Shown in pieces: positions 30,423-50,425 of a stretch of 64,000 nucleotides of DNA; the first letter of the stretch is position 1; the number at the start of each line of letters is the position of its first letter. The DNA comes from Phycisphaerales bacterium (GTDB lineage: Bacteria; Planctomycetota; Phycisphaerae; Phycisphaerales; SM1A02), in assembly GCA_022446965.1 (NCBI GenBank), contig JAKVBV010000003.1, forward strand, positions 1-64,000, read 5' to 3'. The position numbers and the translations under genes were made by a program. Below the pieces are notes generated by a model. That model had not been told where the DNA came from. It made no database searches and saw only the letters and a list, made by a program, of their open reading frames with translations.

Positions 30423-30671
30423 TCAACCACCGCTGACGGGCGGAATGAGCACCAGCTGCATGCCGTCATGCACGGCTGCATCGGGGGCCAGGTAGGCGGT
30501 GTCGGTGGCCAGCGCGACGGCGCCGCCCAGGTCGGTGATCGCGGGGATCTGTGTCTGCAGCTGGTCCAGCACCGCGGCTGCGGTGGGGGCGCACATGATC
30601 GTCACGCCCATGTCGCCCAATGGCTCGCGTAGCTGGCCGATCCCACGGACAGTGAGGGTGACTTCGATCAT
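30423..30671 (-). CDS. moaD: MoaD/ThiS-family sulfur carrier
   Basis: An 82-residue ubiquitin-like protein ending VLIPPVSGG, the Gly-Gly terminus that is adenylated and thiocarboxylated to donate sulfur to molybdopterin. MIEVTLTVRGIGQLRE is the first beta strand. ATG at 30671 overlaps the moeA stop (ATGA), supporting a molybdenum-cofactor role rather than thiamine. It is the last gene of the riboswitch-led operon. Confidence 0.9.
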   Translation of the reverse strand: MIEVTLTVRGIGQLREPLGDMGVTIMCAPTAAAVLDQLQTQIPAITDLGGAVALATDTAYLAPDAAVHDGMQLVLIPPVSGG

Positions 30672-31840
30672 GTCATCAGCACCTGGACGCACGTGCCTGT
30701 GTCCAGTGTGTCGCCGTGCAGTGGCAATCGAGCGATGGCGTTGGTGGCACATGTGTGCACCAGATCGCCCGAGCCGTGCCAGGTGGGAATGGACACGATG
30801 TCGTCACACACGATCGCTGGACGGAGCAGTTGTCGTCGGGCGTTTGGGGTAAAGGCGTGCTGCAGGGGAACATCGAGCCACCGCGGGCCAGGCTGGCCTC
30901 GCCAGAGGGTCGCCGTCGTGGACACCAGCAGTGTGCCCATGACCAGCGCCGCCACGGGATTGCCTGGGAGGCACAGGACCAGTGTGTCGCCGAGGCGGCC
31001 GATCCGCACCGGCTTGCCCGGTTTGAGTGCGGCTGTGACCACGTACCACTGCACACCAAGGGACTCGAGTGCCGGGGCGACATGGTCGCGTGCACCAGCG
31101 CTGATGCCGCCGGTGGTCACAAGCAATGGTGTGGATGCCGCGGCCCGGGCAAGCGCCTCGATCGTGGCCTCGAGATCATCTGGAAGATGCTCGTGCACCG
31201 CCTGCATGCCGTGTTCGGCGAGCAGTGTGCACAGCATCGGGGCATTGCTGTTGCGGATCTGCTGCGCAGCGGGTGTCTGCTCGAGGGGCACCACCTCATC
31301 GCCGCTGGTGCATAAGGTGACGGCAACGTCCCCGGTAGGTAGGTCGATCGCCACGCCACACGATGCGGCAATACCCACTTCGGCTGGCCCCAGCGGTGTG
31401 CATGCGGGCAGCACAACGTCGCCGTGCTTGGCATCGGCGGCACGGCGGTGGATGTTGGCGCCGCGGTTCGCGGTGGCGGTAACCGTGATCGCATCGCGAT
31501 CGCCCGTGGTGTATTCATGAGGCACCACGGTGTCGAGCGCATCGGGAACGGCTGCTCCGGTGGCGATCGCGACGCATGTGCCCGGCGGGGCGGTCACGCT
31601 CGCGCATTGGCCGGCAGCCACGTCACCGACACAGGGCAGGGGGCCGGGCAGGTCGGCATGGCGAAGGGCGTAGCCGTCCATGGCACTGCGATTGAACGGG
31701 GGTAGATCACGATCGGCGTGCACGGCGGTCTGGGCGAGCGGACGTGGTTGGACACGGAGATCCGGCAGCGACACGTCGATGCCCGACGCCGCACTGCAGA
31801 GCGCCTGCATCAACTCGTCGAAGGTGGCGTCGTGAATCAT
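30668..31840 (-). CDS. moeA: Molybdopterin molybdenumtransferase
   Basis: A 390-residue MoeA, which inserts molybdate into adenylylated molybdopterin. Motifs are LPPFNRSAMDGYALRHADL, ATGAAVPDALDTVVPHE, LVTTGGISAGARDHV, ALKPGKPVRIG and VLCLPGNPVAALV. ATG at 31840 overlaps the upstream BFD gene stop (ATGA) and its own stop overlaps moaD. Its place downstream of a cobalamin riboswitch is unusual. Confidence 0.96.
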   Translation of the reverse strand: MIHDATFDELMQALCSAASGIDVSLPDLRVQPRPLAQTAVHADRDLPPFNRSAMDGYALRHADLPGPLPCVGDVAAGQCASVTAPPGTCVAIATGAAVPDALDTVVPHEYTTGDRDAITVTATANRGANIHRRAADAKHGDVVLPACTPLGPAEVGIAASCGVAIDLPTGDVAVTLCTSGDEVVPLEQTPAAQQIRNSNAPMLCTLLAEHGMQAVHEHLPDDLEATIEALARAAASTPLLVTTGGISAGARDHVAPALESLGVQWYVVTAALKPGKPVRIGRLGDTLVLCLPGNPVAALVMGTLLVSTTATLWRGQPGPRWLDVPLQHAFTPNARRQLLRPAIVCDDIVSIPTWHGSGDLVHTCATNAIARLPLHGDTLDTGTCVQVLMT

Positions 31841-32061
31841 GCCCCGGGCTTGTCTTGTTGCAGGACCAGCGGCACACGCGGTTCACCGGTCTCCAGCGAT
31901 GTCGTCAGATAGCGACGGCACATGCCGCACGAGCCGGTGCACCCGAACTGTGCTTTGGCGTCGTCCACAGTCATCGAGTCACGTGATCGCGCCCAATCCA
32001 GCACGGTGGCGAAGGACACGTCGTGGCACACACAGCGATCAACCATGACAGGCTTGGGCAT
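31837..32061 (-). CDS. BFD-like [2Fe-2S]-binding protein
   Basis: A 74-residue protein with the BFD-type cysteine set: DRCVCHDVSF then CTGSCGMCRRYL (C-x-C...C-x3-C-x2-C). Such domains bind a [2Fe-2S] cluster in bacterioferritin-associated ferredoxin, nitrite reductase and related proteins. ATG at 32061 (MPKPVMVDR) is chosen; an internal ATG at 32046 is possible. It lies 8 nt after the prepilin-like gene and overlaps moeA (ATGA). It may donate electrons to a molybdoenzyme or handle iron; neither is shown. Confidence 0.85.
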   Translation of the reverse strand: MPKPVMVDRCVCHDVSFATVLDWARSRDSMTVDDAKAQFGCTGSCGMCRRYLTTSLETGEPRVPLVLQQDKPGA

Positions 32062-32069
32062 GAGGCAGC

Positions 32070-32885
32070 TCAGCGTGGATCGTAGGCCGAGGCGTCGTCG
32101 GACAGGAATCCATTGGCGGGCCAGTCGAGTGTGTCCACGATCCACCCGGGCAGCGCATCGGCGTGCATGCCTCGGAATGCCTGTCGCGCGGTGTCCACCG
32201 AGCCATCCACGCGAGCCACGTTGGAGCCATCGCGAAAGGCCTGCCCGCCTGCGTAGGCGAGGTCGTATTGGGGGCTGACGTTCTCCGGCGATCGCATGAA
32301 CTTGTTGACGCCACCACGTCGTCCACCCACGCCAAAGAGGGCTGTGGTCGAGCCTCTACGGCATTGGGCCAGCGTGAGGTGTGTGTCGCCATCGAGATTG
32401 GCCTTGGGGGAGATCAAGTCCCATGCGCCAAGGCGTGCGTCTCCCGACCCGGGGGTGCGCGACTCACCGGCAATGAAGGCGACGTTGTAGTTGTATCCCG
32501 TCACAGGGTCACCATTCCAAGTGGCATCGATTGCGACAGCGGTTGGGCAGTGCATCACGCCTTGTGCGTTCACGCCGTTGACGTGTGACCACAACGTGCC
32601 TGGCTGCACCGTGCCATCGGGGCGACGATGCCAGTCCCATGCCCGCACATCGCCGCTGAGGCAGTTTCGATCCGTGCCGTGCAGCAAGGCCGGCGGCAGC
32701 GTGCCCTCATGTTCGGTGGCCCATGACAGCGCGCCCAGTGTCATCTGGCGAAGGTGCGCGATGCAGGTGGCTCGAATCGCCGCTTGCTGCGCCGCCGCGG
32801 ACATGGTGGCCACCACGCCGGCGATGACGCACAGGATGGCGATCACCACCAGCATTTCGATCATGGTGAAGCCTCGATGGATCAC
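32070..32885 (-). CDS. Prepilin-type N-terminal methylation protein
   Basis: A 271-residue type II pseudopilin-like protein. The short leader MIHRGFTMIEMLVVIAILCV carries the prepilin peptidase site G|FTMIE and the hydrophobic helix. The C-terminal region resembles planctomycete type II G-like/DUF1559-style proteins, with NVARVDGSVDT near the end. GTG at 32885 overlaps the upstream stop (GTGA); a GTG three codons earlier is in frame. It would be inserted in the inner membrane and assembled or displayed. It is the second gene after the cobalamin riboswitch. Confidence 0.88.
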   Translation of the reverse strand: MIHRGFTMIEMLVVIAILCVIAGVVATMSAAAQQAAIRATCIAHLRQMTLGALSWATEHEGTLPPALLHGTDRNCLSGDVRAWDWHRRPDGTVQPGTLWSHVNGVNAQGVMHCPTAVAIDATWNGDPVTGYNYNVAFIAGESRTPGSGDARLGAWDLISPKANLDGDTHLTLAQCRRGSTTALFGVGGRRGGVNKFMRSPENVSPQYDLAYAGGQAFRDGSNVARVDGSVDTARQAFRGMHADALPGWIVDTLDWPANGFLSDDASAYDPR

Positions 32886-33754
32886 GGCCAGCACTCCAGC
32901 ACCAGCAAGAGATCACCGACATCCACCACGCCGTCAGCAGTGCGGTCGGCCAGGTGCAGTCCGGTGTGGCCGAAGGCACCGACCACCGCGAGAATGTCGT
33001 CGACATTGACAAGGTGATCGCCGGTCGCGTCACCCCATCGGCCCACGTCGACCACGGCATCGATCTCCGGCGTGAGGAAGGCGTCATCAGACACGCTGAT
33101 GCGGACAAAGCTGATGGCGGCCAGTCCAGTTGGGGCGAGATCAACGCCTGTTCCACCAGCGCTCCCGTCGTACAGCGGCACGATGGCATCCCAGCCCTGA
33201 CCCATGATGTCGTCGACCGTGTGCGTTGGTGCCATGGGGCGAACCACATCGGAGGGAAGATCGCCCGGATCGACGGCATACGGGCCAGTGTCCCGCCAGG
33301 CCATGGTGGGCCACAACGCATCGGCGAGGGGGTCCACCTGGATCCAGGTCGTGCCGTCGGCGCTCACTTCCACCACGCCGCCGTCTCCCCCAAAGAGGCC
33401 AGCGCAGATGCCCGCGGGGTAGGCCCCGTCGATCAGGCCGGCGTTGCCAAAGAGCAGCAGGTCGACGCCGTAGAGATTGGCCGGGTCGTCGATCACAGGT
33501 TCATCAAACCCCAGCACGATGAAACCGCCAGCCCCCAGCGACACGAGTTCATCCGGGCTCCAGGCCGGAGCGAAGGGGGAGACCACCATCGGTTGGCCGG
33601 CGGCCTCACCGGTGAGGCGTTCAGGAGGGCCAAGTGCCGTGGCCGGTTGGTCGTAGCCTGGCGAGCCGCCTACACCTGGGGCGAAGTCCACCACCTGATC
33701 CGCAAACGGATCGGCGCAGAGCATGGCGAGAAGGCTCGTGGCGAGGGCCAGCAT
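32882..33754 (-). CDS. Secreted surface protein with dockerin-like C-terminus, riboswitch-controlled
   Basis: A 290-residue exported protein. MLALATSLLAMLCADP is a signal peptide. The body has a beta-rich domain: LGAGGFIVLGFDEPVIDDP, DLLLFGNAGL, then EVSADGTTWIQVDP. The C-terminus has two EF-hand-like dockerin repeats, GDATGDHLVNVDDILAVVGA and DRTADGVVDVGDLLLVLECW. It is the first gene after a cobalamin riboswitch whose aptamer ends 133 nt before the ATG. A role in capturing corrinoids at the cell surface is a hypothesis from context; no known cobalamin-binding fold is recognised. Confidence 0.88.
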   Translation of the reverse strand: MLALATSLLAMLCADPFADQVVDFAPGVGGSPGYDQPATALGPPERLTGEAAGQPMVVSPFAPAWSPDELVSLGAGGFIVLGFDEPVIDDPANLYGVDLLLFGNAGLIDGAYPAGICAGLFGGDGGVVEVSADGTTWIQVDPLADALWPTMAWRDTGPYAVDPGDLPSDVVRPMAPTHTVDDIMGQGWDAIVPLYDGSAGGTGVDLAPTGLAAISFVRISVSDDAFLTPEIDAVVDVGRWGDATGDHLVNVDDILAVVGAFGHTGLHLADRTADGVVDVGDLLLVLECWP

Positions 33755-33887
33755 GAGGGATCCAGGGGGGTGAGCGGCCCAAACACGTGCATTCCACGCT
33801 CAGCAGGGTCTGTCGGCGTCGACGGGCTCCCCGCAGGGCGGGCAAGGGCCACGGCGCCGACCCGATGCGCGCGGGTCGAAAAACCAC

Positions 33888-34077
33888 CGGCTCGGGCAGG
33901 TCTTCCGGCTCCGGGATTCGCCTCGCCTTCCCATCTTCGGCGGTGCGAAGACAGTGGCGTCTTGAGGCTCGTCAGCTGGCCCACGCAGGGGCTGAACCGA
34001 CCTTCCCGTCACGGCGGCGCGTCCGCGGTGGTTTTTCACCACGCTTCCCTGTTGCCACGACCCACTTGAGTGAGCCG
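33888..34077 (-). ncRNA. Cobalamin riboswitch
   Basis: The minus strand contains the conserved AdoCbl aptamer elements in order. CAGGGAAGCGTGGTGAAAA is the GGGAA..GGTGnnAA region, then GCCACTG and TGGGAAGGC. The terminal AGCCGGAAGACCTGCC completes the set. P1 closes by CGGCTC (34072-34077) with GAGCCG (33888-33893). A -10-like TATACT (34094-34099) lies just upstream, placing the transcript start next to the aptamer. Downstream, GGTGGTTTTTC (33878-33888) is exactly complementary to GAAAAACCACC inside the aptamer (34027-34037). A CGACCCG/CGGGTCG hairpin occupies 33858-33878. These are candidates for the expression platform. The rest of 33755-34203 holds no supportable gene. Confidence 0.93.
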
Positions 34078-34203
34078 TACCCGTGCCGGGGGCAGTATAG
34101 TGACCTCTCACAGTTCCACCCCCTTTGACGGTGAGGGGTGGTTGCATCGTGAAGCCGTCGCAGATTCGTGGTGAGTTGGGGCTCACCGTTGGAGATTGAC
34201 CGA

Positions 34204-36363
34204 ATGCAGTTCGCACACCGCCTTGGCCTTGCCGCCGTGCTCGCCGCTTTGCTCACCCTGCCTGCCCGTGCTGCCGATGCCGTGCAACTGCTGGATGACT
34301 TCGTGCACTACAGCCTGACCGCACAGGTCGACCTGGCGCAAGCCAGTGGGCAGCAACTGCTGGACAGTGATCTGTCTGATGCCGAATTGGCCAACATCGT
34401 CGACGATGATCCCAATCTCCGCGACCGCCTCGTGCGTGCCCTGCGATGGGGACGTGAAGTGCCCACGCTGGAAGAGATTTCCGGTCAGATCGAAGTGCGA
34501 GTCGAAGTGGGTCGCCTTGATCAAGCCCGTGACGAAGCGCGGCTCGAAGAAGCCATCACAATGCTTGGTGGCACACGCCGCGAGCGTCAACTGGGCGCTG
34601 GTCGCCTGCTCGCTGGTGGCGAGCATGCCGTTCCCGCCATGTTGCGTGCGCTGGACAGCGGTGATCTCCCGCAAGACATCCGTATGGAAGTGGTGCAGTT
34701 GCTGCCAGCCATCGGACGCGAAGCGGTCACTCCACTGGCGACGGCGCTGCCGCATCTCCCCCCGGATCAACAAGTGATCGTGGCGCATACGCTGTCGGAA
34801 ATTGGCTACCCCCATGCTGGACATGCACTGGTCACGCTGCATCAAGATGGTGGCTCGACCGACGTCACGTCTGCAGCCGCAGCCGACGCCCTTGAAGCTC
34901 TGGGCATGCGTGATCCTGCAGCCGCCGATCTGGCATCCATGCACTCACAGATGGCTCGTCAGTACCTCTCGGAATTGGAGCACCTGCGTGCTCGTCCGGT
35001 GCGTGTGCGTGATCAAGCCGGCGCTGTGGTCAAGCACAACGTCTGGAGCTGGGATCCAACCATCGGTCTGGTCACCGTGACCGTGCCCGAAGACCTCTTC
35101 TTCCCGGTGATGGCGGCTCGTCATGCCCATGCGGCCCGCTCCATGTCTCCGGAAGATCGTGCAGCCTTGGCTGCCTTTGTCGCCGCCAACTTGCGTCTGG
35201 CGCACCGCATGGGCGAGGCTGACCTCGCCGCCGTGTTGCCTGAGCTTGACCGGTCTCCAGCCTTCTATGCCACCGTGCACGGCCCCGATGTGGCCCGTGA
35301 CGTGCTGGCTATGGCGATGGACCAGCAGGATGTCGAACTGTCGCTGGATGCCCTGCAGGCCATGGGCCGCGTGGCGGGTGCCGACGATCTGGTCGGTGGC
35401 GGAGATCGTGAGCCGCTGGTCGAGGCCCTTGTCTTTGACGACCCCCGCGTGCGCTACGAAGCCGCGTTGGTCGCCGCGAGCGCCATGCCGTCGGGTGCCT
35501 TCGCCGGTGCCGAGCGTGTCGTGCCGCTGCTGGGCCGAGCCGCCTTGGGTGGCGCTGGTCGTCTGGCTGCCGTTGCTGCGGCCTCGGAAGCGGCTCGTGC
35601 CACCGCAGTCGAAGCCCTTGAGGCGGCCGGCTATCGCGTCGTTGCTGTAGGCAGCGGCCTCGATACGACGATGCCCGAGGGCGGTGCCCTTGATCTGGTG
35701 TGGGTCGAACTCAGCTCGCCCCAAAGTGCTGGTGCGGAGTACGCCGCGCCGTTGCTGGAGTCGCTTGGCCTGCCCGTCCTCATGGTGCTGCCCGAGGCGG
35801 ATCTGGCTCGTGCCCGACCCGTGCTCGAGACGGTCCCTGGGCTGACCCTCATGCAGCAGGGCACGTCTGCCGATGGCGCCGCGGCCGTACTGGGTGACAT
35901 CGCCGCACGTGACGCGCTCAGTGAAACCGATCGCCGCATGTATGCCGCTCGTTCGCTGGCCTTGCTTCGCGACATGGCGATGCACCGTCCCGATGGGCTC
36001 AGCACGATCGATGCCCTTGGCCCGCTGCGTCAATTGGTGCAGCACGGCGAAGGCGGGCAGCAGTTGATGGCCGGTGAAGTCCTCGCCTCGCTGGATGATG
36101 CTCAAGCACAGCGTGCACTGCTCGATGCGGCCCTAGCCCCCGAAGCGGGCGAAGACCGTGATCGACTCCTGGATCTTGCTGCCACCAGCGTGCGTCGCCA
36201 TGGCGACTTCTCCACGCGGCGCCAGCGTGCGGATCTCGAGGCGTTGCTGGACTCCAGCAGTGGTGCCGAGGCTGAAGCGGGTGCCCGATTGCAGGGATCA
36301 CTTGCGTCGTCCAACGAGCGGGCCTCGTCCAAAGATCAGATCGAGGCTGCGGCCAACCACTGA
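34204..36363 (+). CDS. Secreted HEAT-like repeat protein
   Basis: A 719-residue exported protein of unknown role. MQFAHRLGLAAVLAALLTLPARAADA is a clear signal peptide with an ARAADA cleavage region. Residues about 110-290 and 390-460 contain helical HEAT-like repeats (RQLGAGRLLAGGEHAVPAML, DPRVRYEAALVAASAMPSGA). A receiver-like or Rossmann-like alpha/beta segment follows (VEALEAAGYRVVAVGSG...LDLVWVELSS...LGLPVLMVLPEADLA), apparently lacking a phospho-acceptor. The tail is Ser/Glu/Ala-rich. ATG at 34204 is chosen to start the signal peptide. It diverges from the riboswitch operon. Confidence 0.85.
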   Translation: MQFAHRLGLAAVLAALLTLPARAADAVQLLDDFVHYSLTAQVDLAQASGQQLLDSDLSDAELANIVDDDPNLRDRLVRALRWGREVPTLEEISGQIEVRVEVGRLDQARDEARLEEAITMLGGTRRERQLGAGRLLAGGEHAVPAMLRALDSGDLPQDIRMEVVQLLPAIGREAVTPLATALPHLPPDQQVIVAHTLSEIGYPHAGHALVTLHQDGGSTDVTSAAAADALEALGMRDPAAADLASMHSQMARQYLSELEHLRARPVRVRDQAGAVVKHNVWSWDPTIGLVTVTVPEDLFFPVMAARHAHAARSMSPEDRAALAAFVAANLRLAHRMGEADLAAVLPELDRSPAFYATVHGPDVARDVLAMAMDQQDVELSLDALQAMGRVAGADDLVGGGDREPLVEALVFDDPRVRYEAALVAASAMPSGAFAGAERVVPLLGRAALGGAGRLAAVAAASEAARATAVEALEAAGYRVVAVGSGLDTTMPEGGALDLVWVELSSPQSAGAEYAAPLLESLGLPVLMVLPEADLARARPVLETVPGLTLMQQGTSADGAAAVLGDIAARDALSETDRRMYAARSLALLRDMAMHRPDGLSTIDALGPLRQLVQHGEGGQQLMAGEVLASLDDAQAQRALLDAALAPEAGEDRDRLLDLAATSVRRHGDFSTRRQRADLEALLDSSSGAEAEAGARLQGSLASSNERASSKDQIEAAANH

Positions 36364-50034: not shown

Positions 50035-50411
<377 letters not shown>

Positions 50412-50425
50412 TTCACATGCACAGT

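Follow-up and report, generated by a model that had tools for sequence, protein, structure and literature searches.

A cobalamin riboswitch-controlled locus for predicted vitamin B12 capture, with a BtuH-like exported protein and a prepilin-like partner, in a Phycisphaerales bacterium

What is the role of a cobalamin riboswitch that heads genes for an exported protein and a prepilin-like protein, with no btuB or btuFCD among the genes behind it? Such a locus was found in a 64,000-nt stretch of DNA (the window; positions 1 to 64,000 of contig JAKVBV010000003.1, assembly GCA_022446965.1) from an uncultured marine Phycisphaerales bacterium, whose genome (G000) is a metagenome-assembled genome (MAG) of 2.24 Mb in 112 contigs, 97% complete. 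Behind the riboswitch lie five genes, for the exported protein (here SP), the prepilin-like protein (PIL), a BFD-like protein, MoeA and MoaD (Table 1). A first-pass annotation, made from the letters of the DNA, had offered two explanations, corrinoid capture at the cell surface or a link between B12 status and molybdenum cofactor (Moco) synthesis. Homology, fold and genome context, on which the functional statements here are based, indicated that the locus is probably a cobalamin-repressed B12 (corrinoid) capture operon, in which SP would act through a BtuH-like domain with PIL as its dedicated partner, replacing BtuB.

The cobalamin aptamer proposed in the first-pass annotation was borne out by the covariance model RF00174, which matched over its full length (model positions 1–189) with 75.8 bits (E 7e-17; gathering score 31.5). 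The aptamer had been called “near-consensus”; its B12 box and core were indeed intact, but several pairs were non-canonical, so that the wording was generous. The adjacent “-10 box” was present as a TATACT hexamer overlapping the first, unpaired positions of the model, but no matching -35 and no sigma-70-type promoter pair were found.

The search for SP covered 121 genomes of the family of the window genome, and coordinates were compared. The RF00174 and protein searches were a fast first look with strict filters, and some undetected riboswitches may be misses. SP was present in 81 of the 82 high-quality genomes of the family, and 108 SP loci were obtained, nearly all one per genome. An RF00174 match lay upstream on the same strand at 98 of them (median 166 nt to the match start), and PIL lay directly downstream at 99, indicating that SP orthologs mostly stood behind a cobalamin riboswitch. 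At the other 10 loci no riboswitch was detected, three of these being from genus g23. Four genomes (G007, G024, G360 and G383, three of them from g23) contained SP and PIL and no RF00174 match genome-wide, reflecting either loss of the riboswitch or a divergent one.

The linkage reached other families and the wider class. The order of genes was riboswitch, SP, a PQQ-type propeller, PIL and BFD in family f2, riboswitch, a second exported family, SP and PIL in families f9 and f5, and riboswitch, a propeller-like protein, SP, PIL and BFD in one further locus (L084). SP, second-family or PIL matches were found near 26 of 29 order-level riboswitches. No description of this system in planctomycetes was found in the open-licence literature (subscription journals were outside the search).

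A Pfam scan of SP gave no match. Its AlphaFold2 model, built from close homologs only, had a predicted local distance difference test (pLDDT) score of 93.9, and a Foldseek search of the PDB with this model returned just three matches at E ≤ 0.001, all of them BtuGH or BtuH2 chains: 8blw_B (BtuGH of Bacteroides thetaiotaomicron, 1.5e-5), 7biz B (1.3e-4) and 7biz A (BtuH2, 2e-4). Entry 8blw is the Bacteroides BtuB1-BtuG1 complex, and the protein of its chain B is now named BtuGH. Alignment with VIA-align gave Z 11.9 for 7biz and 11.3 for 8blw (22% identity, 142–152 residues), and the next, unrelated folds, of discoidin/CBM32-like type, scored Z 9.8 and lower. BtuH proteins outranked all other structural matches, indicating that SP carries the fold of the BtuH C-terminal domain.

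No direct sequence similarity to BtuH was seen for the window SP itself. Proteins in the SP slot of two genomes of the same order did match: one scored 8.5e-18 against 8blw and 1e-9 against BtuH2, and the other, encoded behind the riboswitch and ahead of PIL and BFD, scored 2.8e-18 against 8blw_B and 1.1e-14 against BtuH2 (7biz_A). The contacts of BtuH2 with B12 include Asn399, at the phosphate, and Gln333, at the ribose (PMC8941943). Asn399 aligned with Asn104 of the window SP, a residue invariant in 78 of 78 sequences. Cobalamin is bound by both halves of BtuGH (PMC12751083). As judged from the model and from these homologs, SP appears to be a remote relative of BtuH, and the earlier statement that neither of the first two genes was a known B12 gene was in effect wrong.

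The dockerin call made for SP in the first pass was right, though the match was weak in the window copy (NF041540, 19.5 bits; cut-off 29); 26 of 39 members of the SP family matched Dockerin_1. Dockerin-like tails gave 17 matches in the window genome, at least 16 of them beyond SP, and the tail is therefore a general anchoring device rather than the mark of a cellulosome. No lipobox was seen in SP by inspection.

PIL carried the prepilin N-terminal cleavage/methylation motif (TIGR02532, 33.8 bits, cut-off 16.3; N_methyl PF07963, 7e-7, above its cut-off), and its model (pLDDT 93.2) had a pilin-like helix at residues 11–61 followed by a conserved globular C-terminal part. At two of the 26 order-level loci (L027 and L041), PIL-family genes followed the second exported family, and SP was undetected in the stretches examined; the association of PIL is thus with the regulon and not just with SP.

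The second exported family, of PEP-CTERM-like proteins of ~190 residues, was met mainly behind riboswitches away from SP. There were 33 of these in the family, and in 22 of the 23 examined the riboswitch sat 6–224 nt before such a protein (e.g. L090:4413-5252, L086:4332-4985 and L078:4593-5150). The one further RF00174 match of the window genome, on contig 102, was among them. The predicted cobalamin-riboswitch regulon of this family therefore consists almost wholly of two kinds of exported protein. A VWA-domain-like open reading frame (L200:4322-5320), belonging to neither SP nor the second family, was seen behind a 90-bit cobalamin riboswitch near a contig end (G407:C206).

The second family was also found within SP operons of other lineages. 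Its sorting tail aside, it drew only weak matches from Pfam and NCBIfam domain models, and a search of the PDB gave no significant match. It may be a new family of B12-binding proteins. A place for SP or the second family in DUF4465/BtuJ was considered and rejected, as no DUF4465 (IPR027828) match was obtained in Pfam scans. In five loci (L020, L028, L043, L083 and L084) an exported propeller-like protein with a PEP-CTERM or dockerin tail came first behind the riboswitch. The exported propeller-like proteins of the relatives did not match BtuG by sequence; they are possibly BtuG-like in role.

The window genome encodes a full-length, B12-dependent MetH (1231 bits, above the equivalog cut-off), a FecCD permease closest to BtuC among the NCBIfam models (under the equivalog cut-off) and, elsewhere, two BtuF-type proteins. 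No match to the TonB-dependent receptor model PF00593 was obtained in it, and 15 of 25 relatives, some of them near-finished genomes of family f2, likewise gave none. In another genome of the order (G048, family f5), what follows the riboswitch is not SP but a BtuB-like TonB-dependent receptor (L040:1586-3247; best NCBIfam match TonB-B12, 3.6e-62, under the equivalog cut-off, in a reading frame cut by the locus end). The simplest reading is that one riboswitch-controlled surface system substitutes for another. The corrinoid-capture option of the first-pass annotation was thus supported by the riboswitch linkage, by the structural matches to B12 binders and by the lack of a detected TonB receptor in a genome that needs B12.

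In the proposed mechanism, low cellular cobalamin would permit expression of the operon through the riboswitch. Exported SP would be held at the surface by its dockerin-type tail and bind cobamides there through the BtuH-like domain. PIL, presumably co-translated, would most likely form part of a pseudopilus, there to display SP or to help SP or the bound cobamide cross the outer membrane. From SP the cobamide would pass to a BtuF/BtuC-type ABC transporter in the periplasm and be used by MetH, the whole taking the place of BtuB, which went undetected in the window genome. More widely, and as a tentative proposal, planctomycetes without BtuB may have a TonB-independent outer-membrane route for B12, in which a pseudopilus-linked BtuH-like protein, the second PEP-CTERM family and sometimes a beta-propeller, all behind riboswitches of this kind, capture and transfer cobamides.

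PIL might instead stand outside uptake and serve the export or anchoring of SP, as a dedicated pseudopilin of type II secretion-like kind; cobalamin, once concentrated at the surface by SP, would then diffuse through porins in the outer membrane. We think this rather unlikely, although it would fit the adjacency of SP and PIL in nearly all family loci (overlapping in the window), the prepilin leader of PIL beside the signal and dockerin tail of SP, and the general nature of anchoring by dockerin-like tails in this genome. The occurrence of PIL after the second family, where SP was undetected, argues against it.

That SP binds carbohydrates at the surface as a CBM32/discoidin-like protein and is merely regulated by B12, serving e.g. 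attachment to B12-producing partners, is improbable. Many CBM32 and F5/8-type domains did align with the SP model at VIA-align Z 8–9, and dockerin tails often accompany carbohydrate-active proteins. Both B12-binding proteins, however, outranked such domains in both structural scans; apart from dockerin-region matches, the significant matches of the syntenic homologs were B12 binders; and the contact Asn is invariant and the riboswitch linkage near-universal.

The Moco genes bear on the last explanation. Across the 108 family loci, MoeA lay nearby on the same strand in 41, convergent in 6 and elsewhere in 31, and was undetected in the genome in 30; in many named loci it overlapped PIL or lay within 40 nt of it. 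In a second family of the order, BFD follows PIL and the operon ends there, without MoeA. MoeA and MoaD are most likely passengers at the operon end, because the riboswitch-SP-PIL core persists without MoeA; co-transcription of MoeA with PIL is plausible in the lineages where they are adjacent. Since the MoeA of the operon is the only one matched in G000, B12 could truly affect Moco in the window genome. That the operon serves to couple B12 status to Moco synthesis, the riboswitch lowering MoeA and MoaD when B12 is plentiful, is very improbable, and a B12-Moco regulon was rejected as its core function, MoeA being optional, sometimes convergent and often undetected.

Several observations weigh against B12 capture as the function of the locus. 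No expression platform or terminator was identified for the riboswitch leader: the sole terminator-like site lay inside the 3' strand of the aptamer (chance expectation 0.5), and folding of the leader was not unusual (z +1.09). BtuH was absent from the best 60 PDB matches of a profile of close SP homologs; a broader profile including divergent members matched 8blw at 1.6e-6, and the sequence link to BtuH depends on these members. SP does not conserve Gln333 of BtuH2 and departs from it in the Trp577/Leu578 loop, and in the discoidin/CBM32-like class the fold alone does not fix the ligand. PIL gave nothing significant against the PDB; the pilin FimA, with Z 2.7, came nearest. Iron or some other compound may be what the BtuC/BtuF-like proteins transport, and the absence of a TonB receptor is that of matches to a single Pfam model, in a MAG that is 97% complete.

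Comparison with known systems placed the SP locus nearest to BtuH2 (BT_1956) and BtuGH (BT_1490, formerly BtuG1) of B. thetaiotaomicron, with which SP shares the BtuH-type fold, homology by way of same-order members and the phosphate-contact Asn. BtuH2 and BtuGH are under cobalamin-riboswitch control (PMC8941943, PMC12751083), as the SP locus carries a riboswitch. Unlike them, SP has a dockerin-like tail in place of a lipoprotein anchor and no PKD or propeller domain, its operon has a conserved prepilin-like partner and lacks btuB and btuFCD, the Gln333 position differs, and its binding of B12 is predicted. Riboswitch control and, here as a prediction, surface capture are also shared with BtuB-BtuG uptake, and exported beta-propeller-like proteins are encoded after the riboswitch in other operons of the order, whereas no TonB-dependent receptor was detected in the window genome. 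DUF4465/BtuJ proteins have been reported as riboswitch-associated surface B12 binders in several phyla, including the Planctomycetes-Verrucomicrobia-Chlamydiae (PVC) group (PMC13398666); SP differs from them in aligning with BtuH, and both SP and the second family in lacking a DUF4465 Pfam match. PIL shares the prepilin N-terminus and long N-terminal helix with type IV pilins and type II secretion pseudopilins, but its large, conserved C-terminal part resembles no solved structure closely, and its gene lies behind a cobalamin riboswitch.

The features of the locus are listed in Table 1.

Table 1. Features of the riboswitch locus and its neighbour (window coordinates).
Feature	Position	Strand	Evidence
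Cobalamin riboswitch aptamer (RF00174)	33878-34099	minus	cmscan
-10-like hexamer TATACT, 5' edge of aptamer	34094-34099	minus	sequence
SP, exported protein: N-terminal hydrophobic signal, BtuH-like domain ~18-239, dockerin-like tail ~240-290	32882-33754	minus	AlphaFold2, Foldseek, VIA-align, dockerin matches
PIL, prepilin-like protein	32070-32894 (GTG at 32894) or 32070-32885 (GTG at 32885)	minus	N_methyl, TIGR02532
BFD-like [2Fe-2S] protein	31837-32061	minus	Fer2_BFD
MoeA	30668-31840	minus	MoeA_N, MoCF_biosynth
MoaD / ThiS-fold sulfur carrier	30423-30671	minus	ThiS; moaD below cut-off
Divergent HEAT-repeat-like protein, outside operon	34168-36363	plus	weak HEAT_2

The five genes had been described as joined by overlaps or an 8-nt gap, and all the open reading frames were found in their places. 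SP and PIL overlap by GTGA if PIL starts at GTG 32885, the 8-nt gap separates PIL from the BFD-like gene, and ATGA overlaps occur at both the BFD/MoeA and the MoeA/MoaD junctions. In Pfam scans, Fer2_BFD matched at 5.5e-4 (under the curated cut-off), MoeA_N and MoCF_biosynth at 4e-34 and 2e-25, and ThiS at 8e-8; the moaD model scored 32.1 bits for MoaD, under its cut-off. The HEAT-repeat-like neighbour, whose true start is probably ~34204, is kept syntenic in L071, L085, L087, L089 and many other named loci. Elsewhere in the window, a bacterial class A RNase P RNA was found at 50045-50415 on the minus strand (275.4 bits).

These results support, from sequence and modelled structure, a BtuH-type, riboswitch-controlled B12 capture system beyond the Bacteroidota that is anchored differently, has a conserved pilin-like partner and occurs where BtuB was not detected. 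The finding bears on the uptake of so large a molecule as vitamin B12 by Gram-negative bacteria without TonB receptors; marine and freshwater metagenomes were the source of many of the relatives found. If correct, it would name specific B12-capture genes in a poorly understood phylum, extend BtuH-type capture from Bacteroidota to planctomycetes with another surface anchor, reveal through the riboswitches a second candidate B12-binding family, and assign a function to one of the prepilin-like proteins that planctomycetes have in large numbers.

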